A stretch of DNA of 39,813 nt from contig JAKATW010000153.1 in assembly GCA_021827945.1 (NCBI GenBank), positions 1 to 39,813 of the forward strand. The letters are read 5' to 3'. Positions 2,190 to 20,091 of the stretch are shown here, in pieces; position 1 is the stretch's first letter, and each line of letters begins with the position of its first letter. The stretch comes from Thermoplasmata archaeon (lineage in GTDB: Archaea; Thermoplasmatota; Thermoplasmata; Thermoplasmatales; GCA-001856825). Made by a program: the position numbers and the translations under genes. The notes beneath the pieces are model-generated. The model was not told where the DNA came from. It worked only from the letters and a program-made list of their open reading frames with translations, and searched no databases.

Positions 2190-2195
2190 TATAAA
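2190..2195 (+). promoter_or_regulatory. Box A (TATAAA) deciding the start of the KaiC-like gene
   Basis: TATAAA ends 27 nt before the ATG at 2222, the spacing of a leaderless archaeal gene. It overlaps the earlier in-frame ATG at 2195, which argues against that upstream start. A weak AGGT-type ribosome site before 2195 keeps the alternative open. Confidence 0.5.
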
Positions 2196-2221
2196 TGCGT
2201 ATAAACGCTCCGCTCAATGTA

Positions 2222-3295
2222 ATGTCAGTGGATTCTATTAATGTAGCTAGAGTTGCTGAAGAATTCGAGCTAGACAGTGAATTCACGTGGGGTAGCAATG
2301 TCAAAATTACGGGCAAATCGGGTGCAATACATAAGTTCGATCTGGTTGTGACGTCAAAAAAGGATGAGAACGTAAAAGTTGCCGTCCTCCATGGAATTTC
2401 TGAAGATCTTGTCAGCGACATAATGAAATTTAATGCAATAGCAGGTGATTGTGGGATTTCCCTAAAGGCATTGGTCATAAACAAGGATTTAGACGATACT
2501 GAGTTGAATCTTACACACATGTATAATATAATAACGATCGACCAGAGACAGGAGTCAAAACCAAAGACAGCAGTTTTCGGGGTAAAAGAATTGGATGAGT
2601 CGTTAGGAGGAGCCATGAAGCGCGGAAACGTGTACATGGTCTCTGGGAAAACGGGAGTGGGAAAGACAACGACATGCACTCAATTCCTAGTCCAGGGAGC
2701 AAGGATGGGAGAGAAAGGGGCAATCATACTTACAGATACAAGAGGATCAGAATACATCGCAAATGCAAAGACATTTTCGTTTGGATTCGAGGAGTACTAT
2801 AAAGAAGGGACGATAGAAGTTATAGAACTCTCCGACAGGATAAGAGAATTGAAGGAAGGAGTGCTAGATAGTCTAAAGAACAGGGAAAAGTACATCAGTA
2901 AACTCACTGGGGAGATAAGTAGAATTATCATTGAAAGCAACATAACCAGGCTTGCGATTGACCCAATAACGCCTATGATAGTTGAGAATGATGATTTCGT
3001 TAACCAGTTTATCATGAATCTTGCGATACCGAAGACTTTCATGATTGTTACAAGCCCAGTGATGAAGAGCGATCTGAGCATGTACGGAATAGAGGAATAC
3101 TTCGTCTCTGGAGTTATCAAGTTAGAAGTGGATGATCCGACCACGGGATTGAGGAAAGCATCGATAGTAAAGATGAGAGGGGGATCTTACAATCCCTACC
3201 CATTTTACTATAAAATAACCACTAAAGGGATTGTCTCTCCCCAATCAGAGAAAGAACCCAAAGGCAGTTCAATTTTCAAGAGAGTTAACGCCTAG
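2222..3295 (+). CDS. KaiC/RadA-like RecA-superfamily ATPase with extra N-terminal domain
   Basis: About 357 residues from the ATG at 2222 (366 from the ATG at 2195). The C-terminal two thirds is a KaiC-type RecA fold: ELDESLGGAMKRG leads into Walker A SGKTGVGKTTT, a Walker B-like LAIDPIT, and a C-terminal strand region ending KMRGGSYNPYPFYYKIT, typical of archaeal KaiC-like proteins. The paired glutamates that normally follow strand 2 in KaiC are replaced by DTRGSE. The first ~110 residues hold GKSGAIHKFDLVV followed by a VKVAVL strand, which resembles the archaeal restriction-endonuclease-like fold, but the E-x-K catalytic pair is absent; it is probably a degenerate, non-catalytic module. 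The family is known for ATP-driven signalling or DNA transactions; the target here is unknown. Confidence 0.85.
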   Translation: MSVDSINVARVAEEFELDSEFTWGSNVKITGKSGAIHKFDLVVTSKKDENVKVAVLHGISEDLVSDIMKFNAIAGDCGISLKALVINKDLDDTELNLTHMYNIITIDQRQESKPKTAVFGVKELDESLGGAMKRGNVYMVSGKTGVGKTTTCTQFLVQGARMGEKGAIILTDTRGSEYIANAKTFSFGFEEYYKEGTIEVIELSDRIRELKEGVLDSLKNREKYISKLTGEISRIIIESNITRLAIDPITPMIVENDDFVNQFIMNLAIPKTFMIVTSPVMKSDLSMYGIEEYFVSGVIKLEVDDPTTGLRKASIVKMRGGSYNPYPFYYKITTKGIVSPQSEKEPKGSSIFKRVNA

Positions 3296-3347: not shown

Positions 3348-5636
3348 CTACTCTTTCTTTTTGGTGAAGAAGAAACTATCTTTCGTATTGTGTGCTGAGT
3401 CCCGCCTGAACATGCTTCTGTTGTCCCTCCTTATCATTATGTAAAGGGCTGTTACTAATCCAGCAATAACCAGAGCAAGAACCATTGCTATCAATATATA
3501 ATTTGGAGCTCGAAGAAATGCGGAGGCAGTAGCTGAGTTTCCCTGAATTGAGATTATACCACTGAGATGGGTCCCGCTGTACCCAAGGGGCGGTGTTATG
3601 GTATAATTATAGGTACCATTAGGAACTGAAAACACGACACTACTTCCAGTGGAATTCAGTACTAGTTTAATTTCAACTCCATCGAAAGTCTTCCCTTGTA
3701 TAGTAACTGACCAATGCGTTCCTGAGGAAATACCTGTCTGAATTATCTCCATTTGATATGTCACTTCTTTCCATGCTACAACGTTGTTGACATTAGTTCC
3801 ATTTACGGTCAAATTCCCGGAGTATAAAGTGGTGACAAATCCCGATAGTCCTTGTATAATGTATGCGTAGCTACCGTTGGACTCACTGAAGACAACAGTG
3901 TTGTTAAGTGATTGCCTCGTGGTATTGTTGAGTGTGACCGACCAGGGGGTTCCGTTGGTAAGGCCAGTTTCAGTGAACGACACGCTGTAGGTGACTAAAT
4001 AGAAAGTAACCGGAATGTTCAGCGTTGAAGCGTTTAAGGGCCAACCCTTAACTGTGAACTTACCATTGAAAGGGGATGCCCTGTATAAGTCATCGCTTGT
4101 TGATATTTGATACCTGTATGTGCCATTTCTTTCTAAGAATGAGATTGAATTTTGGTAAGAACTAAGGCTGTTGACAGGTGTGAGGTTCAAATAAGTCACA
4201 TTCAGGTACCACATTACTGAAGATGGCAATCTGCTTTCAGTAAATGTGATCTTATGCAACGCATAGAATATAACCGGTGAGGTTGGAGGCGCTGGAGTCA
4301 CAGAACTTCCACTTACAGTGAAATTTCCGATACTTGTACTTTCATTTGGCTCAAAACTCTTATTTCCTACACTAATTATGTAGAAGTAAGACCCGTTAGG
4401 TTCCAAAAAGGAAAGGTTTGAAGAAGATGAGTTGAACGTCGATGGATCTGTTATATTCACATACCACTCGACACCTCCAGGCAGCCCCTGCTCATAAAAA
4501 GTCACCGTATACAGTCGCAGGAAAGCAACACCGACAGAAACCGGGTTACCTGTGACCGTAAAATTACCAGTTGGGTGCAGCAGACCAAAATTCTTGTTCA
4601 CTCCACTGACAGAATAAATGTAAGTTCCATTTGGAGCATTGAATGAAATTAAACTCGAAGTAGTAGAAAGATTTCTGCCGATTGGCCCGGATAAATTAAC
4701 GAACCACTTGGAATTGATCGGTAGACCCGATTCTGAGAAGCTTACAACGGAAGTAAACAGAGTAAACGTAATCAGTTCTGAGGAGCTTTGACCATTTATT
4801 CTTAGTGTGAATGATGATGGAGAAGGATAGTATTCCTTATCGACAGTTGAAACAGAGAAGGTATAAGTTCCATTAGTTAGAGAGAACGAAATCGTGGAAT
4901 TACTGGAGGAGGCGGAAGATCCGCCCGATTCATTGACAAACCACACATCGTTTTGAGGTAAGCCGCTTTCCGTAAAGATCATCTTGTATAAAATCTTAGA
5001 GAAGACCACACTCTCAGTTAACGCGCCACCATTTACTGTGAACTGTCCAGTTGACGGAGATGGAGAATAGATCTTGTTTTCAGCTGCAATAATATACCCA
5101 TAGGTACCGTTTGGTTCTGAAAAACTTATTGCAGAAGTGGTACTGTTAAAGGACTGACCATTTGAAAGATTGACGAACCATTTTGCACCAGAAGGCAGGC
5201 TCGATTCCGTGAATATGACAGAATAAGTAACCAATGTAAATGATATGTAAAAATGTTGAGAAGATCCTGAAACACTAAATGAGCTGGATACTGGAGAGGG
5301 TTTGTAATTTTTATTTACAGTTGAAATTGAATAAGAATAAGTACCATTATACTCAGTGAAATTTAGAGTGCCAGTAACAGATGCCATTTGCGGACCATTT
5401 GTGAGATTGACGAACCATTTAGTACCACTTGGAAGCCCTGTCTCAGAAAATGAAATATTATATATGCCACTTGAAGTAAATGGGGTCTGAACAGCATCAG
5501 TGCTTCCTTCTAAGGGAATACCGCTCTTGCTGTATTCATTGACACCTAAGTAAAGGATTCCCGCAAAGCTAGAAGAGAGCAATATAACTGCAATAAGCAC
5601 CGCCTTGAATCGCTCTTCAGATGCCGCAGGAGACAT
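3348..5636 (-). CDS. Membrane-anchored surface protein with eight FTESGLP modules
   Basis: 762 residues. A hydrophobic N-terminal segment (about 12-32) acts as signal or anchor. It is followed by eight tandem modules of about 75-90 residues, each with the plan FTESGLPxGxxWFVNLxNG, then an FSEPNGTYxYxI strand pair, then GxFTVxG. A C-terminal membrane helix (about 710-734) precedes a basic cytoplasmic tail (RRDNRSMFRRD). NxS/T sequons are very dense and I saw no cysteine, as expected for an N-glycosylated, acid-exposed extracellular protein. The same module closes the giant protein upstream (5917-18930), so the two probably belong to one surface layer. It ends 52 bp from the convergent KaiC-like gene. 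The function is likely structural or adhesive (inference). Confidence 0.9.
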   Translation of the reverse strand: MSPAASEERFKAVLIAVILLSSSFAGILYLGVNEYSKSGIPLEGSTDAVQTPFTSSGIYNISFSETGLPSGTKWFVNLTNGPQMASVTGTLNFTEYNGTYSYSISTVNKNYKPSPVSSSFSVSGSSQHFYISFTLVTYSVIFTESSLPSGAKWFVNLSNGQSFNSTTSAISFSEPNGTYGYIIAAENKIYSPSPSTGQFTVNGGALTESVVFSKILYKMIFTESGLPQNDVWFVNESGGSSASSSNSTISFSLTNGTYTFSVSTVDKEYYPSPSSFTLRINGQSSSELITFTLFTSVVSFSESGLPINSKWFVNLSGPIGRNLSTTSSLISFNAPNGTYIYSVSGVNKNFGLLHPTGNFTVTGNPVSVGVAFLRLYTVTFYEQGLPGGVEWYVNITDPSTFNSSSSNLSFLEPNGSYFYIISVGNKSFEPNESTSIGNFTVSGSSVTPAPPTSPVIFYALHKITFTESRLPSSVMWYLNVTYLNLTPVNSLSSYQNSISFLERNGTYRYQISTSDDLYRASPFNGKFTVKGWPLNASTLNIPVTFYLVTYSVSFTETGLTNGTPWSVTLNNTTRQSLNNTVVFSESNGSYAYIIQGLSGFVTTLYSGNLTVNGTNVNNVVAWKEVTYQMEIIQTGISSGTHWSVTIQGKTFDGVEIKLVLNSTGSSVVFSVPNGTYNYTITPPLGYSGTHLSGIISIQGNSATASAFLRAPNYILIAMVLALVIAGLVTALYIMIRRDNRSMFRRDSAHNTKDSFFFTKKKE

Positions 5637-5916: not shown

Positions 5917-8900
5917 CTACCTTTCCATGTTCCTTATCCTGAATAAATCCCTGTCCCTCTTTCGTTTCACGAGAAGTGCGGCGACTACTAAGGAAACGAC
6001 CGCTAACGATGCCACGAGAATCGAGACAATCAGAAGCTCATTTACAGAAATTGATGATTGCTCAATAACGGTGGCTGATTTTCCATTTACACTGACTGTA
6101 CCGCTTCCTATGGATGCGTGATAACCGGATGGCAGATCAACAGAATAGGAGTAGGAACCATTTGGTTCATAGAATGTAATGACGTTAGAAGTAGAAGTAA
6201 GTGTCTGGGTACTTGGTTGACCTGCGATGGATGGACCTTCGATTGTGGCAGACCAAGAAGAACCAGATGGTAGCCCAGAAATAGTTATCGTTACAGGATA
6301 GGTAATTTGTGTCCAAGAATTAGTGACAGTCACATTGCTACCAGCTACTATCACATTGCCTGAATAATCTTTAGTTCTGTACCCCGAAACTGAAGAGATG
6401 TTATAGGAATAAGAACCATTCATCATTGAAAATATGAACGGGCCTTTACCGGATCTAGTGGTCCCATTAAGGGTAACGTTCCACAGAGTACCAGACGGCA
6501 GTCCCGTTTCCTGGAAAGTAATATCATAAAGCACCGGCGTAAAAGAAACTTTCGAGGAAAACGAAGCACCGTCCACCACAAAAGTCCCTTTTGGAGATGA
6601 ATATGACTTGTCAGCAGTGGCAATCGAATAGCTGTATGTTCCGTTCACTTCGTAAATCGTGATTGTCGAATTATTTGAAGAGTAAGACTTTCCACCCGTT
6701 ATGTTAATGTACCATTTAGTGCCATGAGGAAGACCAGTCTCCGTGAAAGATACTTGATATCCAATAGCCACAAAAATAACGCTAATAGAAGTCGAAGATC
6801 CATTTACTAAGAAAGAACCGCCGAAAGCTACATATTTATGATTAGAAGCTTCCACGGAGTAAGTATAAGTCCCGTTCGGTTCAAAGAAAGATATTGTAGA
6901 TCCACTTGAGGAATACGACTGACCATCGGTAAGGTTTACGTACCATTCCGTTCCAGCCCCAATTCCATATTCTGAAAACACTACAGAATACACCTCAGGA
7001 GAGAATACAACTTTGACTGTGATACTGTACCCATTCACTACAAAGGAATCAGATGTTGAGACGAGCTTATAGCGGCTGTCGGAAGAATTGACCGAATAAC
7101 CGTAAGTCCCATTCCCTATTAGGAAAGAGATTGTGGGTAGAGTGGAGGAGAAAGACTGACCATCCGTGAGGTCGATATACCATTTAGTGCCGAGCGGAAG
7201 GCCAGATTCCGTGAAAAGGACCTGGTATATTATGGGGTATAGAACTGCTACCTCTACCACATTTGAATATACGACAACGGGGTCGGTGACTACGTCGGTG
7301 ATAGAGGCTCTGAAATAGTAGATGCCCGGTTGAGTCGTGGAATTTGTAACAAGGTGATAACTTGAGTTGGTTTCACCCACGATCAGTTGCCATGTAGATG
7401 AGCCAGGCAGTTCTTCGTACCACTGAAATGCATAAAGACCTGATCCTCCCTGGACAGTCAGAACGACCGTGGTTGAATTTCCTCGGTCTATGGAGATAGA
7501 GGTGATTGAACCGACACTCCCGATCGACGAACTGGTAATCAGAGCAGTATTAACGAGAAGGATCGCGCTTGTACTGTTCGTCTCTCCTTCAAAATCTGTG
7601 ACCTTGAAAACTACCTTGTACTTTCCCGGCTTATAAAAATATGTGCTGTTTCCAGAGGACGTATAGTTTCCATAAGCAGTGAGACCTGAAGGATACTGGG
7701 TAACCGTCCACGAATACGAGAAGGGTGAAGTCCCCCCAAAGACTGTCCCATTAAACGTGTAGTTAGCATCGATCTCCGGTGTCCCGGACCCTGGGAGTAT
7801 CGCACTAGGAGGAGGATTTACTACAATTAATATATGGGCTGAAGATGAAGTTACCGTCCCTTCGCTGACGTTAAGCCATACTGTATAATTTCCAACAGCG
7901 CTGCTTGGAAAAGTGTATGCCGACGAGCTTCCAGCGCTGAACTCCGATCCACCTAGCTGCCACGAGTACGTATATGAAATGCCCCCCGGTGTCACAGTAC
8001 CCGTAAGATAGACCGGATGGTTAACGTCTGTTGAAGTCACACCATTCGTTACCGTCGTGCTGCTTGAAATGCTTACGGAGATGCTCAGGGCAGCAACATT
8101 GACTGTCACCGGTAGCATAGTCGCAGACTGAAGATCAGCGTCTGTCACCGTTGCGCCGACTGAATACGACCCTGGCGTAGAAAATGTGATCTGGTTGTTT
8201 GTTGATGTCCATCCGGAGCTAGGATTGACATTCCACTGGTAGACAAAGGGTCCCGTTCCAAATCCCGACTGGACATTCAAGGTCAGCGGAACACCTGTTT
8301 CGGTTGAAGTGGAAGAAAGTGAAAGTGCGGAAGGTGTGGGATCGTTGTTCACCGTTATGAGTACAGGCTGTGACGTGGCGGTTCCAGATAACGAATCCTT
8401 TACAGTAAGTGTGACATCGTAACTGCCGGCATTACTGAATGTGACATCGTTCCCTGAAACAGTATAGTCACCACTCGCAGAACCGCCATTCTGTAGCGTG
8501 ACCGAGTAGCTATAGGTGTAGGGTGTCGTCCCTCCAGATGTGGAGTTGGTGAAGAGTACCGGCTTACCGACATCGACCTCGGAAGTGGACGGAGAGATTA
8601 CAGTGGTAAGACCAGATACGACGGTTACGATCGCGTGAGCTGTAGTGCTAGTCTGGTTTACATCCGTGACAGTGTCGTTCACGCTATAAGTTCCAGGCGT
8701 ATTGAACGTGACCTGGTTTCCTGAACTGGAAATAGAATAATCTCCAGAAGCCGATCCCCAGGAGGGATATTTCTTTATTGTCCATTGAGAGCTGTATGGA
8801 GGAGTTCCGTATCCGGACTTTACAGAAAACCCGACCAAACCTCCGACTCCAACTGAGGTTGGTATTATTGAAACCGCGTTCGACGATGTCAGGGGTTTTC

Positions 8901-11900
8901 CTACATTGACGTAGGTGCTGTATTTCAGTACTGTGGGTATACTCGAACTGTCCTGGATGTACAGCTGGACTGTGTAATTTCCTCCACCAGTAGGGGTAAA
9001 TGGATATATGATACCTTGACCACTGGTAACAGTTCCAGAACTCCCAGAGGTAGTCAGGTTGGTTCCGTTTACTGCCCACTGGTATGTGTACGGTCCGTTC
9101 CCTCCACTCACGGTCGGGGTGTCCGTCAGTGTAACTCCCCCACCAACATCAAAAGTATAGGTTTTGCCACTTGAGCTACCAGATGCCAGGGTCGAGATCA
9201 GCTGAGTATAGACCTGAACATCTGCTGTCGTGGGACTACTGGATGGAGTTCCAGTGCTGTCGTAAGTAGTGAGTTGGACAATGTACTGGCCCGGAACGTT
9301 GAACACGATCGTCGCGCTCGGGTAAGCAGAAAGCGTATAAGTTGCCTCAGTGACGACAGTAGTGTTGTTGAAATACTCCACTACCCACGAAAAATGATAG
9401 GGGGGGCCAGCACCACCCGACCCTGTAGCAGTTAAAGGAGTTCCAACGTCAATGGTGTAATCCGGAGAAAACGTGGAGAAACCGATAGCTTGAAAATTGA
9501 GGGCAGAAGCTGAGTTGTGCGATTCCGATGGAGTCCTCGCTGGAGAAGAGAGCCCACCGGTCGGGCTCGAGTTTACAGTTACCACTGAATAGGCAGAGGC
9601 AGGAATTCCACCAGCATTTGTGACATTAAGATAGACAACGTATTTTCCCTGCTTTAGGAATGTGAACGTGTTACCGGATTGTGAGTATACCTGGGAAGAG
9701 GTGGTATAAGTCCCGTTAAGAGTGACAGACCATGAATAGGACACAGGAGTCGCCGTAGTCGCGTTCGAAAATGTTACTGATCCCCCCGTGTCTATGGTGG
9801 TCGAGAGGGGGGAGATAGAAACCTGGAAGTTGATAACGTTTATCGTAACAGAAGATGAGTAACCAGTGACCGAGGGGTTGTTGCTCTCGGAAACTTCCAC
9901 CTCAAAATACCAGGTACCGACAGTAGTAAGAGGACTGGTAGAGAAAGAGGCGGGCGCAGAGTTGAAAGGTACAGCGCTTCCCATATCCACATATGATGAG
10001 AGACCTGGAGCTATGTCCAGAAGCTGTGCTTTGTAAGGGCCACTACCGCCGCTTACTGAGTTTACGTAAATGTTCGTGGCTAGCCCGTTTACCGATGTAG
10101 ATGGCCCACTGATAGTGACAGTGAGACTCGTAAGGCTACCAGTAGGTTGGGAATTCACTGTCACTTCTGAGGAGGCAGATGAGACCTTCCCTACTGAATC
10201 AGCCACCGTGAGCACAATTGTAAAAGTGCCAAGGTCGGCAAAAGTGAACTTGTTCCCAGATTGTGTGATTCCGCTGCCACTGGGGTACGACCAGGTGTAC
10301 GTGTACGGAGAAGTTCCGTAGTTTGTAGTGTTTGTGTATGTAATGCTCTGTCCTATGTCTATGGAGGTAGACGCAGGTGAGATTGTTATGACAGGAAGCA
10401 TGTGAACCCTGACTTGTACTGGGGAAGAGGTGATTGTGTTTGAGAGCGAATCCGTTTCCGTAAGGGTTACGGAATATGATCCCGCAACATTGAAAGTAAT
10501 TGTATTGCCTGATATGGTGTAGCTATTGCTCCCTGATGTTCCAAAGGAGGAGGTGACAGAGTAGGAATACCTGAATGGACCTACTCCACCGGTGGAAGTG
10601 TTGGTGAATGCGATTGACTGCCCAACATCGATAGTGGACGAAGCTGGAAGTAGAGTCACTTGTGGACCCGAAGCTACAGTAATGGTTGCAGACGCCTGCG
10701 CACTTCCATGCGCATCTGAGACTGTGACAGTAGCCACGTAAGTTCCCTGGGCGCTGAACGTTATCTGGTTGCCTGAGTAAGTCCATCCAGTAGTGGGGGA
10801 TGCTGTCCAAGAATAGGTGAATGGACCCGTTCCATATCCAGAAGCCACGGTCGCAGTTACGGGTGTACCGACATCCGTTGCGGTTGGCGAAATGGTAATT
10901 GCTGATGCAGTAAGGACATTACTGACTGTTACGGCAATCGGTGACGAGAATCCGTAAACTGTTGGATTGCTGACCTCATAAACTTCCACTTCTAGATTCC
11001 ATACTCCTGAAGTTGAAAGGACGGAAGTGGTGATAGCCTGCGGGAAAGAGGAGAAAGAGGTCACGGGTTGGCCAGTAGTGGAGTAAGTAGAGGAACCCGG
11101 GGACATGGCTAGTATCTGGGCGGCGTACGGTCCGGTTCCCCCGGTCACTGAGTTGATGTTCAGAGTAACCGACTGACCAGATTCCGAAACGGACGGACCC
11201 GAAATCGTTACGGTCAAAATAGATAGAGTACCAGATGGAGATGAACTTACCGTAACCGTGGAGTAGGACGAGGCGTGACCCTTTGCAGAATCAGTGATGT
11301 TCAGATATACTTTATACGTCCCAATGCTTGTGAAGGTGAAGGTGTTGGTCGACTGTGTATATTTACCTGAAGCCGACGCTCCGTTCAGCGTAACGGTCCA
11401 GGAATACTTGTACGGCGGCGTGCCAGTACTGGCTGTATTATTACTGAACGTCGTAGATTGACCAATGTCAATTGAAGCAGACAGAGGAGAGAGTACGACA
11501 GAAAGCGCAGAGTCCACCTTTACAGCAACTGGCTGGGAAGTAACTTTGTCAGATACCGAATCCAAAACTGAGAGCGTTACGTAATAGCTCCCAGAAGCAG
11601 TGAATGTTATTGTATTAGAGCTTACAGAGTAGACTCCAGCGGCTGACCCTCCGTTTTGGAGAGTGACTCCATATGAGTACTTGTAGGAGCCGCTTCCACC
11701 ATTGGTGGCATTGGTGAAGGTTACGTATTGACCTGCATCAATTGTTGACGCAGCGGGAGAAAGCGATACGCTCAGTTGAGCGTTTACCGTTACTGTCTCG
11801 TAGGAATAACCTATTCCACCCTTGCTGTCCTTGATATATAGGTACACATAGAAAGTTCCGTGGGTCGCAGAACTGGGGGTGTAGGAGTAAAACTGGGGGG

Positions 11901-14900
11901 ATGTACCCTGTGTATATCCTGAGTTAGGAACAGAAGAGGCAGATGTGGACTGGACCACCCATTTGTACAAATATGGCGCAGTCCCTCCAGTAAATGTTCC
12001 TGAGATCGTCAGAGTCTGAGCTGCATCTATGCTGACGGAAGAAGCAGAAGGACTGGTTATTGAAACAGCTATGTTGCTAACGGTCACTTCTACTACGTTA
12101 GAGTAAACCACCTCTGCCGGGTTTCCGCTGTCCGTTATCTGTAGTTCGAAATACCAGGACGCAGAAGTCGCATATGACAGGTCTCCGGTAGATTGAGCGA
12201 GCGCAAGCACACCGGCAGAATTTAGGTCCTTTGTGGAAGAGCCCAGATTGGTGAATCCAGTTGCCCCGGCTGTCGAAGCAGTCGTGGAAAACAACCACTG
12301 TACTGTATATGTGGGTGTTCCAGTCAGAGTGGTAGTAGGCAGGACTGAGAGGGATGCCGCCTGAGAATTTTCTATAATACCTGGGGTAACTGTTATGACC
12401 ACAGAAGACGAGGAGAGGGCGGGGTTGACCGTTATAGTAGAATACCCATATGCCTTCTGATTGCCAGAGTCTTTTACGTAGAGGAACACGTAGTACGGTC
12501 CCGACCCTGAAGCAGTCAGAGTAGGGGAATCAGAAACGGAAGTTCCGGTAGTCGAAGAGTATCCAGAAGATGGGTACGAGGGAGTGGATGTTGTCTGGAC
12601 TACCCACTCGTAACTGTACGGGGAGGCGCCACCTGACCAGCTACCTGAGAACTCTCCAGCAGAGATGGACTGTCCTGCGTCGAGAGAAAATGATGAAGGG
12701 GATACTCCAACAATAGAAGATAAAGTAGAACTGATTGTTACGGTTACTTGAGCGCTATTGCCCTGAATGTTCCCATTCCCGTCCTCCACCCACATGTAGT
12801 CGGTATAGGTTGTAATACCAGACGTTATCGTGAGATCATTGTAGTAGGCCGTCCCTGTGGTTCCCGTAGCTCCGCTGTTTGAGAAATCTGATGGGGACGG
12901 TGCTGTGCCTGAAGTACTCCATATGTACTTGTAAGAGGAAGCTCCCCCGGAGAAGGAACCGCTGAATTGTATCGACTGCCCTACATCGACCGAAGTAATA
13001 GACGGTGCCACTACAGTCACACTCAACGCGGGATATACACTTACTGTAAGTGGGATGCTAGACACTGCAACTACGTTGTTACTGTCTTCTACGTACAGGT
13101 AAACGTAGTATGTGGTGTAAGTGCCAGAGGTGTAGGTAAATGTCAAGGACCCCGTAATCGTTCCGGATGTTGATGTGTTGTACGAGCTGGGTGAATAGGT
13201 ACCCTGTGAAGAAACCATTACCCAAGCATAAGAATATACTCCGCTCGTGGCTGTATATCCGCCTGTCGCAGTACCCACTAAAGACAACAATTGACCTGAG
13301 TCCGTGCTGCTTGGTGAGGGAGATGTAATCAAAGCTGATGGTAACGAATAGATTGTGATCTTTACGAAACCTGTGGAGGCGCTGGTATAATAATTCTGGG
13401 AATAAGCAGATGCGCCGGAGACATCTTTATCAAACACGACAGCGAAATAGTATGTTACCGTTCCGCCGGTGGACCCAGATGTGGTTGGAGGAGTAAAGGA
13501 TGTACCATACTGTCCCGTTGGCGTCGGAGAACTTAGATCCGAAGATGATGAGCTATACCACTCGACGTACACGGCATCGGATGGATTCGAATAGTCTGAC
13601 GAGTGTGAAGAACTGCCAGAATAGGTTACTGTTGCAGTAATAGGAGATGCGGATTGTCCTATGTCATATATTGCTGAAGAGGGGGTAACCGAAACTGTCG
13701 GGTCTCCGATGATTGTAATAGTAACAGTCACGTAGACCCATGCCGGCACGTAGTTGTATGTGCCCTGTGACGGCCCCGTATTTTCGACAAGCAGATAGTA
13801 CGTGCCGGATTCCACGGTCACCGGACTGTCGTAAATACCGGTTGTGAAAAGACTATTGGAAATCGCATACGTGAATGCGCCCTGTGCACTGGTGACCGAA
13901 TAGGACGGTGTGACCAGAGCCGTATCGAGATTACCCGATGCGAACCCTCCCGTTCCGGCAAAGTCAAAAGTGACCGATTGACCAGTACTCTCTGCTGCGG
14001 ACAGGGATGTTGCGTTGCCAGACCCACTCACAGGCAGAGTCGCGGTTATTCCTAGAGGGGGACTAATTGAGACCTGTACGAAAGAGTATACCCATGCAAC
14101 CGGAGATGTGCCCACATCCTCTACAACAAGATAGTAGTACCCACCAGTCAGTTGATTGGAAACGTCAACTATGGATGAATCGGAGGAGAGAGCTACCACG
14201 GGTGTTAGGGCAGTGATACTGGAAAGAGTGGAGGTCGAAGAGACAGCAGAAGAAGAATAGTACAGTCCAGAATAATAGACACTGGTCCCCCCATATCCCG
14301 TGAAATCAAATGTCACGTATTGCCCAGAATCTACGATCAGTTCCTGGAGTGAAGTCCCGTTGGAAACAGTCGACTGAGTCGGAGTAGGCGAGTTCGCAGC
14401 TACCGATATTGCCAATCCGGAAGATACAGTGACCTCCACCACGTTCGAGTACGATGCGTAACCGGAAATACCGCTATCCGATACCACTGCAAAATAATAG
14501 GTAGTTCCAGATGCAGAGGTCGGGATCGGGAAGGAAGTTCCTGTCACTCCTGTAGGAGTTCCTCCTGACGTAGAATCGGAGGAACTGCTGTACCATGTCA
14601 CGCTTGCCTTGTTGTTTCCGTCGTATTTCACATTGGCAGTTAGGAAAGAGGACTGGCCGATATCTAGAGTCAGTGGTCCCGTTGGTTCAACCGAAACCTC
14701 AGGAGCCAGACCTACCTTTATTCTCAGAGTGGAACTAGCACTAGATCCAAGTGAATCCGTTACAGTCAAAGTCAAAGTATAGATTCCTGGCAAAGAGAAA
14801 GTGAACGTATTATAAGTAGAAGTACTAGTTCCCTGCGACCAGCCACTTGCTGGAGAGATATCCCACGAATAAGTCATCGGACCTGTTGCCCCCCCATTAG

Positions 14901-17900
14901 TGGTGTTCGATATTACAGTTGATTGACCTGTATCAACGGAGGTAGGGGTAGCACTAATCGAAACAGACAGTGCTTCGTAGACCTTTACCTCTACTATGTT
15001 CGAGGATGATGAATAACTCAGAACCCCGCTGTCGGATACCACTGCGTAGTAGTAGGTTGTTACTGAAGTTGACGTGGACGGAGTGAAGTGGAACCCTGAA
15101 ATTCCGGTGTCCGTTCCCCCAGTAGTCGAGTCCTGACTGTTGCTGAACCATTCCACAGATATCGTGTTCTCCCCCCCATAATTGACTGACGCAGTCAGGG
15201 CCGATGCAGACTGGCCACTATCATAATATACTGGCCCGGTGGGAGAGATTGAAACAGTCGGGTCTGGATAGACCAGAACGATTATGGTGTTGGACTGGGT
15301 GGTAGCACCCGTGGAATCAGTAATGATTAGATAGAAGCTCGCTTCGTTCCAGGAGACGGTGTTAGGCGTGAAAGAGTACGTAGCGGAAGTTGCACCTGGA
15401 ATCGAAGTGCCATTGAGATACCACTGGTACGTAATTGCTCCGGTTCCAGTGATCAAGGACGTGAAAGATGTCTCCTGTCCCACGTCTACGACTGCTGTTG
15501 AAGGTTCTGAATATATCGTAGCTTGTGGCAGCGGTCCGACCGTCACTGTTGCTGAAGATGATGATGTTATCCCAGCGCTGTCAGTAATCGTTAGGGTTAC
15601 TGTGTACGTCCCTTTAGCAGTAAACACAAATGTATTTTCTTTAATAACCGATCTGACCCATCCTGTAGAGGGAGATACTGAATAAGAGTAGGAATAAGAA
15701 GGCGTCCCCAACTTCGTGATATTAGTAAAGGTTACCGACTGACTTTGGTCGATTGTCACGGAAGATGGTAATATCGTCACCGTGGGGAGAGAGTTAACTG
15801 TGATAATAGCGGATGCTTTCGCATTCTGAGAGTTGCTGTCTGTCACGTTGAAATACAACTTGTATGTACCAGCAGCAAGAGAAGATCCGAAAGTGAACCC
15901 GTTAGGCCCCAGAACGGCATCGGTCCGATTGGTATCGGATCCGCTAACTTCAAGAGTCCAGGTGTAAGGTGTAACTCCTCCACTAATAGAAAGCACAACT
16001 GATGTGCTTTGTCCACTATCGAATGCGGATGGTGAAACCGAGATTGTCGCAATCGGTAGTGAAGTGACTGTGACGGTAACGACATTTGAATCGAGATCGC
16101 CTCCGGGATTGCCATTACTGTCGCTGATCCATAAATAGTATGTTCCTTGTGAGGATAGATACCAGGTTGAAGAAGATGAAAATGAAATGGATACTGAACC
16201 TCCTTGCATAATCGAGCTGCCATCTGCGGTCGTCACAATCGCTGTCGACGAAAGTGCAGAATAGCTATTCAGTTCATATCCCGGACTGGTAGTAGAGACA
16301 TACCAGTATCCCAGGTAGTTTGGGAAATTGGAATTAAGACTAGCTGTGAGAGTCAGAGTCTGACCCTGACCAACAGTAGCCGTTCCTGGAGAGATATTGA
16401 ATACCGATGCTTTGCTTACATAATTTACGGTCACGGTTATATAATTTGATGTCCCAACTATGTAGGCATTACCATCTGGGGAGTTGCCGTCCTCAGCATA
16501 TAGATAGACGTAGTATGTACCTGCTCTTGCAAATGAAAGAGAGTTTGAAACTGACCCAGACGTTGTGTTAGCATTGTAAAAAGAATCGGAAGAAACACGA
16601 GGCCCGTTCTGCAAGTTAAGATGATCAGTCTCAATCCAAGCGTAGAGGTAATCTCCACTTCCACCGCTGATACTCCCTTGAGCAGTGAATGACTGCCCTG
16701 TGTTAACGTCGACCGTGCTAGAAGACGTAATGGTAGGAGAAATCGCCAGGTTTACAGTGACAACTATGTAGTTGGATGCCTCAGTTATCCCTCCCTGGCC
16801 ACTCGTTGCAAACAGATACACATAATAAGTCCCGGAATTCGAGAATGATAACTGAGTGTGTACTCGCCCGTTTGTGGAGTTGAATGAGGTGGGGTTCGAA
16901 GGGGATTGCGATTTGGTTGCTACCCAAGCATACCCATAATTATCGTGGTGGTCACGACTGTAGTAGCCGTAAGTGTGATATGAACCGTATTGCTCCTGCC
17001 CAGATATCTTAGCTGTCGCTGTGAAGGACTGCCCTGCATCTACTGTCACAGAGAGCGATGAAGTTATTTGAACTGAAATAGTGGGAACTGCATTACTCAC
17101 AGTTACGGTTATATAACCTGATGTCCCAACTATGTAGGCATTACCATCTGGGGAATTGCTGTCCTCAGCAAATAGATAGACGTAGTAAGTACCAGCCCCT
17201 GCGAATAATAAGGAGGCGGATACAGATCCGAAAGAGTTATTATTATCATCAAAGGAGTCAGAAGAGACGAGGGGTGACCCAGGCGATTGAACTATCATCC
17301 AGGCATAGAGGTACGTCCCGCTTCCTCCAGATATATCACCAGTAACAGTAAAAGGCTGCCCCGAGCTAACGCTCACATCTAAGGAAGAAGTTATCGATGG
17401 TGAGATTGCGGGATTGACCGTCACCACTATGTATCCAGACGCCTGAACCAGTTTGCCTCCACTGTCTTCTCCAAAGAGAAACACATAATAGGTGTTAGAA
17501 CTCGAGAATGATAACTGGGTAGTTATTTGACCGTTTGTGGAGTTGAATGAGGCGGGATTTGAGGGGGACTGAGAAGTAAGAGCGACCCAAGCGAATTCAT
17601 ATCCTGAACCAGTACCTCCAGATATGATGCCGCTCACGGCAAAAGACTGCCCTGCATCCACTGTTATGGGAAGGGATGACGTAATCTGAACTGAGAGTGC
17701 CGGGCTGATAGGACTTACCTTGACTTTTATGTAGTGGGACGATCCAACTATGTAGACGTTCCCGTCAGGGGAATTAGTGTCCTCTGCATAGAGATATATT
17801 TCATACTTTCCTTGTATCCCTAGCGCTGGGACATTGGAGGATGATAGAGTTGATGATACTTGACCCTGTGAAGTGTTTCCGGCCTCAAAAGAAGATGCAG

Positions 17901-18930
17901 AGATTGATGGTGTATCGCCTGCGACTATCCACGCATAGAGATATTCCTCACTTCCGCCAGAAATACTACCCTGTGCAGTGAATGATTGCTGTCCTTTAAT
18001 GTCGACATTATTAGGTGCTACGATTGAAGGAATGATAGGTGATAGAACAGAAACTTGTATGTAACTAGATGACTGGAAAACAGCACCGTTACCTTCTACA
18101 CCAAAAAGATAAACGTTGTAATTACCGTCGTTTGAAAATGAGATGCTAGTTGAAATGGATCCTGAAGTGGAGTTAAATGATGCCGGAAACGACGGACCTT
18201 GAGATTCTGTTTCTACCCAAGCAAATCCGTATCCTGAACCAGTACCTCCAGATATGGTACCCGTAGCAGTGAATGACTGACCTGCGTCAATCGTTATCGA
18301 TAAAGGTGATGTTATCTCGACAGATAGGGTTGGAATCGCGGGGCTGACATTGACCTCAGCATAGGCAGATGCACTCTGTTGAGCATTCTGCATGCCTACG
18401 GTTACCCAGAGATAGTAGGTGCCTGGCGTATTTACCGTTGCGCCAGTATTGGAGGTCGTAAAGGTGAACGATTGGTCCTGACCCAGGATGTTACCAGTGG
18501 GGCCCGAAGAATCACCAAGTTGCCACTGATAGTAATCCCAATTCTGAGATTTGGAGCTTGCGGTGAACACCTGATATTGCCCAATTTCAAGGGAAGAAAA
18601 AGAGGGGGAGACCGTAACCTTTGAATTATCATTGGCCCCGTTTAGAGATGGGCTAATTAAACTCACGTTCGACGTCAATACTGTCCCTGAGGAAGAGGGA
18701 GCAGACGGTGCTGGCCAAGTCTTTACTACGCTACCATTCCTTACCTGTTCATAATAACTGTATTTTTGCCCGCCCATGGTTTCTGTGACGATGTATATGT
18801 GAGAAGAGGAGCTATTTGATGTGCCGCCTGCCCCATAAAAAGCACTGGAAATCGATGATGTTACCATTATGATGACTATGAGCGTAATTATAACTCCGAC
18901 TATTCTTGTTCTTTTATAGCCAAGGCTCAT
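5917..18930 (-). CDS. Giant PKD/Ig-like repeat surface protein, 4337 residues
   Basis: An uninterrupted 13-kb frame. Residues ~9-32 form a hydrophobic signal or anchor. Then come about 38 beta-sandwich modules of 80-110 residues, each opening with a strand like SPxxxTIDxGQSVTFT, followed by GGTxPYxYSWxV and closing GTYxVxLTVTDSxG..VTV. This is the PKD/Ig-like pattern. From about residue 3900 there are five FTESGLP-type modules, then a membrane helix (~4298-4320) and a basic tail (KRKRDRDLFRIRN). The first modules alternate as A-B pairs with a period of 206-224 residues. The protein is Ser/Thr/Gly-rich with many sequons, and I found no cysteine on reading. PKD arrays are known in archaeal surface proteins; a role as stalk, adhesin or surface coat is inference. 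A TATA box at 18951-18960 suggests leaderless transcription. Confidence 0.92.
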   Translation of the reverse strand: MSLGYKRTRIVGVIITLIVIIMVTSSISSAFYGAGGTSNSSSSHIYIVTETMGGQKYSYYEQVRNGSVVKTWPAPSAPSSSGTVLTSNVSLISPSLNGANDNSKVTVSPSFSSLEIGQYQVFTASSKSQNWDYYQWQLGDSSGPTGNILGQDQSFTFTTSNTGATVNTPGTYYLWVTVGMQNAQQSASAYAEVNVSPAIPTLSVEITSPLSITIDAGQSFTATGTISGGTGSGYGFAWVETESQGPSFPASFNSTSGSISTSISFSNDGNYNVYLFGVEGNGAVFQSSSYIQVSVLSPIIPSIVAPNNVDIKGQQSFTAQGSISGGSEEYLYAWIVAGDTPSISASSFEAGNTSQGQVSSTLSSSNVPALGIQGKYEIYLYAEDTNSPDGNVYIVGSSHYIKVKVSPISPALSVQITSSLPITVDAGQSFAVSGIISGGTGSGYEFAWVALTSQSPSNPASFNSTNGQITTQLSFSSSNTYYVFLFGEDSGGKLVQASGYIVVTVNPAISPSITSSLDVSVSSGQPFTVTGDISGGSGTYLYAWMIVQSPGSPLVSSDSFDDNNNSFGSVSASLLFAGAGTYYVYLFAEDSNSPDGNAYIVGTSGYITVTVSNAVPTISVQITSSLSVTVDAGQSFTATAKISGQEQYGSYHTYGYYSRDHHDNYGYAWVATKSQSPSNPTSFNSTNGRVHTQLSFSNSGTYYVYLFATSGQGGITEASNYIVVTVNLAISPTITSSSTVDVNTGQSFTAQGSISGGSGDYLYAWIETDHLNLQNGPRVSSDSFYNANTTSGSVSNSLSFARAGTYYVYLYAEDGNSPDGNAYIVGTSNYITVTVNYVSKASVFNISPGTATVGQGQTLTLTASLNSNFPNYLGYWYVSTTSPGYELNSYSALSSTAIVTTADGSSIMQGGSVSISFSSSSTWYLSSQGTYYLWISDSNGNPGGDLDSNVVTVTVTSLPIATISVSPSAFDSGQSTSVVLSISGGVTPYTWTLEVSGSDTNRTDAVLGPNGFTFGSSLAAGTYKLYFNVTDSNSQNAKASAIITVNSLPTVTILPSSVTIDQSQSVTFTNITKLGTPSYSYSYSVSPSTGWVRSVIKENTFVFTAKGTYTVTLTITDSAGITSSSSATVTVGPLPQATIYSEPSTAVVDVGQETSFTSLITGTGAITYQWYLNGTSIPGATSATYSFTPNTVSWNEASFYLIITDSTGATTQSNTIIVLVYPDPTVSISPTGPVYYDSGQSASALTASVNYGGENTISVEWFSNSQDSTTGGTDTGISGFHFTPSTSTSVTTYYYAVVSDSGVLSYSSSSNIVEVKVYEALSVSISATPTSVDTGQSTVISNTTNGGATGPMTYSWDISPASGWSQGTSTSTYNTFTFSLPGIYTLTLTVTDSLGSSASSTLRIKVGLAPEVSVEPTGPLTLDIGQSSFLTANVKYDGNNKASVTWYSSSSDSTSGGTPTGVTGTSFPIPTSASGTTYYFAVVSDSGISGYASYSNVVEVTVSSGLAISVAANSPTPTQSTVSNGTSLQELIVDSGQYVTFDFTGYGGTSVYYSGLYYSSSAVSSTSTLSSITALTPVVALSSDSSIVDVSNQLTGGYYYLVVEDVGTSPVAWVYSFVQVSISPPLGITATLPVSGSGNATSLSAAESTGQSVTFDFAGTGGFASGNLDTALVTPSYSVTSAQGAFTYAISNSLFTTGIYDSPVTVESGTYYLLVENTGPSQGTYNYVPAWVYVTVTITIIGDPTVSVTPSSAIYDIGQSASPITATVTYSGSSSHSSDYSNPSDAVYVEWYSSSSSDLSSPTPTGQYGTSFTPPTTSGSTGGTVTYYFAVVFDKDVSGASAYSQNYYTSASTGFVKITIYSLPSALITSPSPSSTDSGQLLSLVGTATGGYTATSGVYSYAWVMVSSQGTYSPSSYNTSTSGTITGSLTFTYTSGTYTTYYVYLYVEDSNNVVAVSSIPLTVSVYPALSVTVVAPSITSVDVGQSIQFSGSFSGGASSYKYIWSTSGTAPSPSDFSNSGATGTTGTAYYNDLTITSGITTYTDYMWVEDGNGNIQGNSAQVTVTISSTLSSIVGVSPSSFSLDAGQSISAGEFSGSWSGGASPYSYEWVVQTTSTPSYPSSGYSSTTGTSVSDSPTLTASGSGPYYVFLYVKDSGNQKAYGYSTITVNPALSSSSVVITVTPGIIENSQAASLSVLPTTTLTGTPTYTVQWLFSTTASTAGATGFTNLGSSTKDLNSAGVLALAQSTGDLSYATSASWYFELQITDSGNPAEVVYSNVVEVTVSNIAVSITSPSASSVSIDAAQTLTISGTFTGGTAPYLYKWVVQSTSASSVPNSGYTQGTSPQFYSYTPSSATHGTFYVYLYIKDSKGGIGYSYETVTVNAQLSVSLSPAASTIDAGQYVTFTNATNGGSGSYKYSYGVTLQNGGSAAGVYSVSSNTITFTASGSYYVTLSVLDSVSDKVTSQPVAVKVDSALSVVLSPLSASIDIGQSTTFSNNTASTGTPPYKYSWTVTLNGASASGKYTQSTNTFTFTSIGTYKVYLNITDSAKGHASSYSTVTVSSSPSGTLSILTVTISGPSVSESGQSVTLNINSVTGGTGPYAAQILAMSPGSSTYSTTGQPVTSFSSFPQAITTSVLSTSGVWNLEVEVYEVSNPTVYGFSSPIAVTVSNVLTASAITISPTATDVGTPVTATVASGYGTGPFTYSWTASPTTGWTYSGNQITFSAQGTYVATVTVSDAHGSAQASATITVASGPQVTLLPASSTIDVGQSIAFTNTSTGGVGPFRYSYSVTSSFGTSGSNSYTISGNTITFNVAGSYSVTLTETDSLSNTITSSPVQVRVHMLPVITISPASTSIDIGQSITYTNTTNYGTSPYTYTWSYPSGSGITQSGNKFTFADLGTFTIVLTVADSVGKVSSASSEVTVNSQPTGSLTSLTVTISGPSTSVNGLATNIYVNSVSGGSGPYKAQLLDIAPGLSSYVDMGSAVPFNSAPASFSTSPLTTVGTWYFEVEVSESNNPSVTGYSSSVTINVINFQVSISPLSTTIDTGGSVTFSNATTATPVSYSWSVTLNGTYTTSSQVYSQSGNTFTFLKQGKYVVYLNVTNAGGIPASAYSVVTVNSSPTGGLSSPARTPSESHNSASALNFQAIGFSTFSPDYTIDVGTPLTATGSGGAGPPYHFSWVVEYFNNTTVVTEATYTLSAYPSATIVFNVPGQYIVQLTTYDSTGTPSSSPTTADVQVYTQLISTLASGSSSGKTYTFDVGGGVTLTDTPTVSGGNGPYTYQWAVNGTNLTTSGSSGTVTSGQGIIYPFTPTGGGNYTVQLYIQDSSSIPTVLKYSTYVNVGKPLTSSNAVSIIPTSVGVGGLVGFSVKSGYGTPPYSSQWTIKKYPSWGSASGDYSISSSGNQVTFNTPGTYSVNDTVTDVNQTSTTAHAIVTVVSGLTTVISPSTSEVDVGKPVLFTNSTSGGTTPYTYSYSVTLQNGGSASGDYTVSGNDVTFSNAGSYDVTLTVKDSLSGTATSQPVLITVNNDPTPSALSLSSTSTETGVPLTLNVQSGFGTGPFVYQWNVNPSSGWTSTNNQITFSTPGSYSVGATVTDADLQSATMLPVTVNVAALSISVSISSSTTVTNGVTSTDVNHPVYLTGTVTPGGISYTYSWQLGGSEFSAGSSSAYTFPSSAVGNYTVWLNVSEGTVTSSSAHILIVVNPPPSAILPGSGTPEIDANYTFNGTVFGGTSPFSYSWTVTQYPSGLTAYGNYTSSGNSTYFYKPGKYKVVFKVTDFEGETNSTSAILLVNTALITSSSIGSVGSITSISIDRGNSTTVVLTVQGGSGLYAFQWYEELPGSSTWQLIVGETNSSYHLVTNSTTQPGIYYFRASITDVVTDPVVVYSNVVEVAVLYPIIYQVLFTESGLPLGTKWYIDLTDGQSFSSTLPTISFLIGNGTYGYSVNSSDSRYKLVSTSDSFVVNGYSITVKVVFSPEVYSVVFSEYGIGAGTEWYVNLTDGQSYSSSGSTISFFEPNGTYTYSVEASNHKYVAFGGSFLVNGSSTSISVIFVAIGYQVSFTETGLPHGTKWYINITGGKSYSSNNSTITIYEVNGTYSYSIATADKSYSSPKGTFVVDGASFSSKVSFTPVLYDITFQETGLPSGTLWNVTLNGTTRSGKGPFIFSMMNGSYSYNISSVSGYRTKDYSGNVIVAGSNVTVTNSWTQITYPVTITISGLPSGSSWSATIEGPSIAGQPSTQTLTSTSNVITFYEPNGSYSYSVDLPSGYHASIGSGTVSVNGKSATVIEQSSISVNELLIVSILVASLAVVSLVVAALLVKRKRDRDLFRIRNMER
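16433..16500. repeat. Nucleotide-level direct repeat inside the giant gene, copy 1
   Basis: This stretch is nearly identical to 17105-17172, 672 nt (224 codons) away; a central run of 34 nt (from 16448) is exact. It encodes the PDGNAYIVGT segment of a B-type module. Identity at DNA level, including third codon positions, shows a recent duplication or gene conversion among modules rather than old protein-level similarity. Confidence 0.8.
17105..17172. repeat. Nucleotide-level direct repeat inside the giant gene, copy 2
   Basis: Second copy of the B-module segment found at 16433-16500. A third, more diverged copy lies near 17730-17790, spaced by 618 nt (206 codons). The 18-codon difference between the two spacings equals the His/Tyr-rich insertion in the intervening A module. 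Confidence 0.8.
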
Positions 18931-19371: not shown

Positions 19372-20091
19372 TCAGTACCAGTAGATTATTGTTACAGTTT
19401 CTGTAGCGCTCGTTAAAGTGTTCGAGTTACCTACCCCTATCTCAGCACTTGACGTAGGAAGCACGGGGAAGTACGCGCTTCCATTGTGCCCTATAGTAGT
19501 GGAACTGTCATAACTGACTCCGTTAGCAGACCATATCACGATACCGTAGGTGTTAGCTGTAGTTGAAGAGAGGACTTGGATTTGAATGAATCCTGCATAG
19601 CTGACGTTGAAGATGGAAAAACTGTAAGAGTCTGGACCCTGACTGACTGTATAATTCTCCTCTAGTATGATTGACTTGCCCAACTCAACGATCTGTTCTA
19701 GAGTTGTAAGTTGGGCCGTCAGATTGGCCTTTTCATTTGTTAGAGATGTAATAGTTGAGTTTAGAGAGTTCAATTGATACTGTAATTTTAAGTTAGTGGC
19801 ATTCAGTGACGAAATTGTTGAATTCAAGGAATTCATTTGTGACTTAAGGCTGACCAAGTCGTTGTTTAAGGACGAGATGGTGGAATTGAGGGAGGTTATC
19901 GTACTCTTTTCAGAGCTTATCTCGGCATTCAGAGCGATTATTTTTTGGTTATTGGAGTTTGAGTTATCAGATTGACGGAGAGCTACATATCCCAGAGATC
20001 CAGCTAGCACAATGATGACAACTATCAGCGCAATCACAACGGTGATTCCCACCGTTTTTTTGGGTTGCGTCGATCCTGTTGCGTTGCTCAT
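19372..20091 (-). CDS. Membrane-anchored coiled-coil surface protein
   Basis: 239 residues. A short basic N-terminus and a single hydrophobic helix (about 14-38) anchor the protein with its C-terminus outside. Residues ~45-140 form a coiled coil with near-exact repeats of SLNSTISSLN, rich in Asn-Ser-Thr sequons. The last ~95 residues form a beta-rich domain (SYSFSIFNVSYAGFIQIQV to ETVTIIYWY) ending at the C-terminus. This stalk-plus-head plan is typical of small archaeal surface proteins; the binding partner is unknown. It lies 441 bp upstream of the giant gene on the same strand. The start is supported by TTTAAATAAT (minus reading) at 20111-20120, about 25 nt before the ATG. Confidence 0.85.
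   Translation of the reverse strand: MSNATGSTQPKKTVGITVVIALIVVIIVLAGSLGYVALRQSDNSNSNNQKIIALNAEISSEKSTITSLNSTISSLNNDLVSLKSQMNSLNSTISSLNATNLKLQYQLNSLNSTITSLTNEKANLTAQLTTLEQIVELGKSIILEENYTVSQGPDSYSFSIFNVSYAGFIQIQVLSSTTANTYGIVIWSANGVSYDSSTTIGHNGSAYFPVLPTSSAEIGVGNSNTLTSATETVTIIYWY

Follow-up and report, generated by a model that had tools for sequence, protein, structure and literature searches.

A predicted membrane-anchored giant of Thermoplasmata with a conserved cap, a PKD-like shaft of variable length and a five-module FTESGLP base

We analysed a stretch of 39,813 nucleotides (the window) from an acidophilic, wall-poor Thermoplasmata archaeon of the I-plasma group, which is contig C17 of a draft MAG of 1.83 Mb in 161 contigs. 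A single frame on the minus strand (5917..18930) starts with ATG, contains no internal stop and encodes 4,337 aa; this protein is called the giant in the following. The uninterrupted 13-kb frame and the lack of any cysteine, both noticed in the earlier note, were thereby confirmed. Serine and threonine make up 18.3% and 13.6% of the chain, and for its mature form we computed a mass of ~446 kDa and a pI of 4.2.

The giant is part of a locus that in its genus comprises two Ta1207-family genes, a KaiC-like ATPase, an anchored protein consisting of FTESGLP modules only, the giant, a surface-protein gene and a CocE-type hydrolase. In the window the Ta1207-family and ATPase genes occupy 164-1096, 1192-2046 and 2195-3295, a block that is conserved in the genus members examined. 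The following gene (3348..5636, minus strand) encodes the FTESGLP-only protein of 762 aa with ~8 modules, a transmembrane helix and a basic tail. It adjoins the giant in every genome with the locus and measures 748-870 aa in relatives. Which gene lies upstream of the giant depends on the sub-clade. In the window and in the close relative G003 it encodes an anchored coiled-coil protein (239 aa; 19372..20091, minus strand), the orthologue in G003 being 81% identical and in the same place; the coiled-coil loci are window 19372-20091 and L040 2905-3624. In other species it is replaced by an FTESGLP protein of 1,515-1,526 aa on the opposite strand (L023 1092-5672; L025 286-4845; L041 3958-8505). 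Two candidate assignments among the neighbours were rejected: SlaB for the coiled-coil gene, whose match was limited to the coiled coil and reached 32.7 bits (cut-off 700), and an NCBIfam Shiga-B hit on a neighbouring gene, a chance match over 31 residues (E 0.006; 16.7 bits, cut-off 204.5).

The same protein is found in named relatives, namely I-plasma and other Thermoplasmata MAGs. Intact orthologues from the same genus (I-plasma) measure 4,600 aa in G004 and 3,531 aa in G007; they lie on contigs of ~500 kb from independent assemblies, at the same locus and with the gene order preserved. The locus of G001 covers ~4,620 codons split over two frames, the G009 orthologue is frame-broken as well, and contig ends or gaps interrupt the giants of G009, G006, G010 and G003. 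Two overlapping frames (L023 6026-11134 and 10716-19895) make up the giant in the named I-plasma genome, probably owing to an assembly frameshift or a real break. Comparing the giant with G003 gave dN values of 0.19-0.24 and dS values of 1.2-1.8, and with G009 a dN of 0.28 at saturated dS. Across the cap, the distal modules, the base and the coiled-coil neighbour dN was 0.10-0.28 with dS above 1, which indicates purifying selection on all of them; for the distal modules dN/dS was ~0.1-0.2. An assembly error, which the earlier note had named as one finding that would overturn it, is ruled out by the intact orthologues, the open frame and the purifying selection: the giant is a real gene and not an assembly join.

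At the N-terminus, residues 1-30 (18841..18930, minus strand as for all features of the giant) form a putative signal peptide with a basic n-region and a hydrophobic core. It would be cleaved at a conserved [SY][SG]A↓F site, the orthologues carrying SSA↓F, SGA↓F and YGA↓F. A distal cap follows (residues 31-80; 18691..18840), which contains the motif HIYxVTxTxGGxxYSYYExVxNGxVxKTWPAPxA and shows 46-60% identity among species. Each genome yielded one convincing copy, always at the start of a giant. AlphaFold2 (AF2) models residues 42-73 of the cap as a three-stranded meander, which a disordered, presumably flexible linker (residues 77-104; 18619..18702; pLDDT 32-46) connects to the first bead. 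No recognisable enzymatic or lectin head was found at the distal end. Of the head-stalk fibre considered in the earlier note, the stalk thus remains, while the place of the head is taken by this small cap.

The shaft (residues 105-3891; 7258..18618) consists of 37 PKD-like modules and one atypical unit; it was assigned with an HMM of our own and the Pfam models PKD and PKD_4, as well as by AF2 and Foldseek for the first modules. The HMM, built from the modules of the giant itself, detected 37 units in the shaft and 5 in the FTESGLP zone (~3890-4267). It covered 3,525 of 4,267 mature residues and left one big gap in the shaft (1612-1745). This gap holds an atypical 38th unit resembling residues 1500-1622, giving 38 + 5 units, in agreement with the ~38 PKD/Ig-like units and five FTESGLP modules counted before from module starts. 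Of the two atypical units of ~120 aa (residues 1500-1745; 13696..14433), which are alike by eye, the first matched the HMM weakly (E 0.012) and the second did not match. In Pfam, PKD (family PF00801/PF18911) matched 8 stretches with 56 bits against a gathering cut-off of 23.5, and PKD_4 matched 4 stretches with 73.1 bits against 27; most of the remaining modules match the self-built profile only. The PKD label is therefore backed by Pfam but not by the canonical WxFGDG motif, which is essentially absent (one WQLGDS in the giant, none in the orthologues), and we thus term the modules PKD-like.

Modules 2-7 (16465..18324) form a distal A-B super-repeat with a period of ~210 aa or 630-670 nt, in which copies of the same type are 50-66% identical in protein and 63-77% in DNA sequence. 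G004, G007 and that part of G009 which is sequenced have no close counterpart. In G003 the super-repeat is present but rearranged, with a different A-B count. The distal shaft units of G003 are 72-81% identical to those of the window, with two additional modules inserted among them; one of the two is a copy of module 1. The number of PKD-like units is 37 in the window, 42 in G004 and 30 in G007. Given the inserted modules and the different A-B count in G003, the shaft evolves by module gain and loss (range 30-42). Its last PKD-like module (residues 3808-3891; 7258..7509) is collinear in the orthologues by alignment.

The base (residues 3902-4290; 6061..7227) comprises five FTESGLP modules with up to two recurrent sequons each and a pLDDT of mostly 80-93. 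It is followed by a predicted C-terminal transmembrane helix with a basic cytoplasmic tail, KRKRDRDLFR (residues 4298-4337; 5920..6039); the AF2 model contains the helix at 4298-4336, as anticipated for the end of the chain. All 7/7 orthologues possess five FTESGLP modules. Over the seven genomes compared, the region from the last PKD unit through the five FTESGLP units to the anchor is collinear, with 42-63% identity. The profile of the full base reached E <1e-250 only within the genus.

AF2 models cover two segments of the giant, the rest of the shaft being assigned by sequence profile. For residues 3800-4337 (538 aa) a mean pLDDT of 84.1 was obtained, with six beta modules and one terminal helix of 39 residues. 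Residues 26-620 (595 aa) yielded a mean pLDDT of 72.1 and beads that were nearly all beta. For both modelled ends these beta-sandwich beads rule out a disordered low-complexity protein, and the modules proposed earlier to be beta-sandwiches are borne out there. In Foldseek searches the best match of the base was the TIE protein 6fwv (E 4e-15, TM ~0.37), the low TM being expected if the angles between beads are uncertain; the distal part matched contactin-2, cadherins and other multi-Ig proteins. Tandem beta-sandwich modules, an export signal and a membrane anchor, all of them predicted, together make the giant a putative Ig-like bead-string surface fibre.

The FTESGLP module is ~78 aa long and is characterized by a core W, often within W-x-x-N-[LI]-[ST], and by NG[TS]Y; the modules of the giant show these features. 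Neither Pfam nor NCBIfam has a model for it, and no paper containing the term was found. We detected the module in 91/250 sampled genomes and 29/85 genera of the class Thermoplasmata. Throughout the class its arrays typically precede a C-terminal membrane helix and are often sequon-rich. Units also occur below thermopsin domains, including in the window's own genome, and in other anchored proteins. By this distribution the base is a generic cassette of the lineage that is not special to the giant. The long stalk with a specialised base suggested earlier therefore holds for the anchored beta-sandwich stalk and its distinct membrane-proximal base, but not for a specialisation of that base in the giant.

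Among solved structures the best sequence match of the module was a SpaA-like prealbumin domain, which is a weak match (E 0.004). We also considered whether FTESGLP could be a diverged form of the PKD module. An iterated PKD profile absorbed FTESGLP units, and a clean profile-profile comparison of the two module types also yielded a match (E 0.011, probability 1.75%) that stood above shuffled and reversed controls but is too weak to convince. Isopeptide cross-links based on a Lys-Asn/Asp-Glu triad were rejected, since twelve FTESGLP modules have no lysine among their invariant columns.

Over the whole chain N-glycosylation sequons are not enriched (61 against 64 after shuffling). Within the giant the enrichment is confined to the base, where we counted 15 sequons in the window compared to 5.9 ± 2.1 after shuffling, and 17 compared to 8.7 in both G004 and G007. 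The window's shaft has slightly few (46 versus 58 ± 6), and the FTESGLP-only neighbour protein has 35 compared to 15.4 ± 3.3. Sequons of the base recur at two positions of the module, one following the core Trp and the other at NG[TS]Y. Across the class, 52/55 NG-turns are followed by T or S, and about half of the sampled proteins show a clear enrichment. Since NG is a favoured hairpin turn, a structural reason for the recurrence of NG[TS] is possible. Homologues of N-glycosylation genes are present in I-plasma (PMC3750248), and the sequon pattern suggests that the base is N-glycosylated.

How could such a protein work? The signal peptide would be removed during Sec export and the C-terminal helix would hold the chain in the membrane. 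An Ig-like bead is ~4 nm long. Five FTESGLP modules could accordingly provide a rigid N-glycosylated foot of ~20 nm that crosses an exterior protein layer, and 30-42 PKD-like beads a shaft of ~120-170 nm, or ~150 nm for the shaft of the giant itself. The small conserved cap would then be presented by its flexible linker far from the membrane, at the tip of a fibre of ~170 nm overall, where it may contact surfaces or cells (self, biofilm or partner) beyond the layer. The FTESGLP-only protein next door would work alongside the giant. Because cap and foot are kept while modules gained or lost may tune the reach, our best guess, which we hold to be only just probable, is that the giant is a membrane-anchored fibre for long-range contact or adhesion with a glycosylated foot. 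The fixed gene order, the giant-specific conserved cap, the collinear base, the variable PKD count (37/42/30), the module insertion and duplication between the window and G003, the modelled beads and terminal helix, and the sequon enrichment of the base together with the N-glycosylation gene homologues of I-plasma support this reading, as does the fact that the best Foldseek matches are multi-bead adhesive or receptor stalks. Velcro-like and string-like contacts have been seen between cells of acid-mine archaea (PMC4110969), and if a contact fibre is the correct reading, the giant would be a molecular candidate for the string-like ones. No ligand-binding domain was recognised in the giant, and purifying selection acts on its shaft modules, which show no sign of the diversification that a recognition surface would lead one to expect.

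Archaea are already known to have giant surface proteins of the Ig-like or PKD kind (PMC5498576, PMC8416519, PMC10266531, PMC11573180). New are the three-zone design with its fixed five-module foot and conserved cap, and the recognition of FTESGLP as a widespread, uncatalogued module. Archaeal PKD/beta-propeller surface proteins (Mia14; Jing et al. 2002, as cited in PMC5498576), for which that citation reports a proposed role in cell-cell interaction, share secreted PKD-type Ig-like modules on the archaeal surface with the giant. The latter lacks propeller, CARDB and LamG domains and instead has a foot of five FTESGLP beads that carries a pure shaft of 38 beads. The nanohaloarchaeal SPEARE giants (PMC10266531) are similar in their giant size, signal peptide, tandem Ig-like domains and membrane anchor, but measure 8,880-9,409 aa and include a VirB4/TraG-like ATPase domain, whereas no ATPase family of Pfam or NCBIfam matched the giant. 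VARTIG of Thermococcales (PMC8416519) is likewise a large multi-Ig protein that changes rapidly in part of its chain; recombination makes its C-terminal Ig domain hypervariable, whereas in the giant the C-terminus is most conserved and the shaft varies. Stalks of Gram-positive fibrous adhesins (TIE 6fwv, SpaA/CnaB type) provided the best structural match of the base and its weak SpaA-like profile match. In contrast to them, the giant shows no established sequence homology, sortase route or conserved isopeptide lysine.

A different role would follow if the giant and other FTESGLP proteins made up the bulk of an unordered exterior protein layer (EPL), i.e. a coat replacing the S-layer, with the shaft packed or folded back. 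Thermoplasmatales mostly lack a lattice S-layer, and in the related Cuniculiplasma and Oxyplasma a dense, unordered EPL of ~20 nm has been described, likely of glycoprotein, with no protein assigned and a composition stated to be unknown (PMC12448462). The many proteins of the class that carry FTESGLP arrays, often sequon-rich, before an anchor would suit such a coat, and the estimated height of five modules would match its thickness. The layer was, however, seen in genera other than I-plasma, for which putative S-layer genes have been reported (PMC3750248), and a 38-module shaft would, if extended, exceed it several-fold. No S-layer family of Pfam or NCBIfam matched the giant. We consider a coat role possible, though somewhat unlikely. 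Under either role the locus provides a concrete coat or fibre candidate with a clear layout of conserved cap, variable-length shaft and fixed foot rich in sugar sites, and the class-wide module missing from Pfam and NCBIfam can be searched for in existing proteomes and tomograms. A broader and more speculative idea, which we rate as unlikely, is that the exterior protein layer of Thermoplasmata has FTESGLP arrays as its building principle: an N-glycosylated stalk module would hold enzymes (thermopsins), propellers and giant fibres for contact at defined heights over the membrane, with the giant as the longest fibre.

Protection against viruses, as a shield or decoy, is another role that the giant could have: its long and variable coat would keep virions off the membrane or vary the receptor surface. 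Module turnover in the shaft would fit this, as would viruses seen on surface filaments of Thermoplasmatales in tomograms (PMC4110969); the low dN/dS of the distal modules speaks against it, and no defence or toxin family matched the giant, a match on its neighbour being coiled-coil noise. We regard such a shield as improbable. That separate genes were joined in the assembly or that a repeat gene is decaying, as the fragmented draft MAG and the broken frames of G001 and G009 might suggest, is practically negligible in view of the two intact orthologues in conserved order, the open frame and the purifying selection.

Further proteins with these modules were encountered during the analysis. In the window's own genome, contig C19 encodes a 2,236-aa protein with BNR/propeller-like repeats (L042 665-7375) adjacent to a 925-aa thermopsin (L042 8080-10857); each of the two has FTESGLP units and, as judged by eye, a PEGA-like unit ahead of the anchor. 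Two FTESGLP genes (G010:C7:7455-8606 and G007:C17:79375-80622) have one in-frame TGA each in the matched stretch and could be pseudogenes, adjacent frames or the result of sequencing error. PKD units were also found in a 6,020-aa open frame of another Thermoplasmata family (G040:C1:490522-490767). A Micrarchaeota MAG contig (L039 8204-13450) encodes a multi-Ig-like surface protein of 1,749+ aa, a stretch of which is 39% identical to the last PKD unit of the giant.
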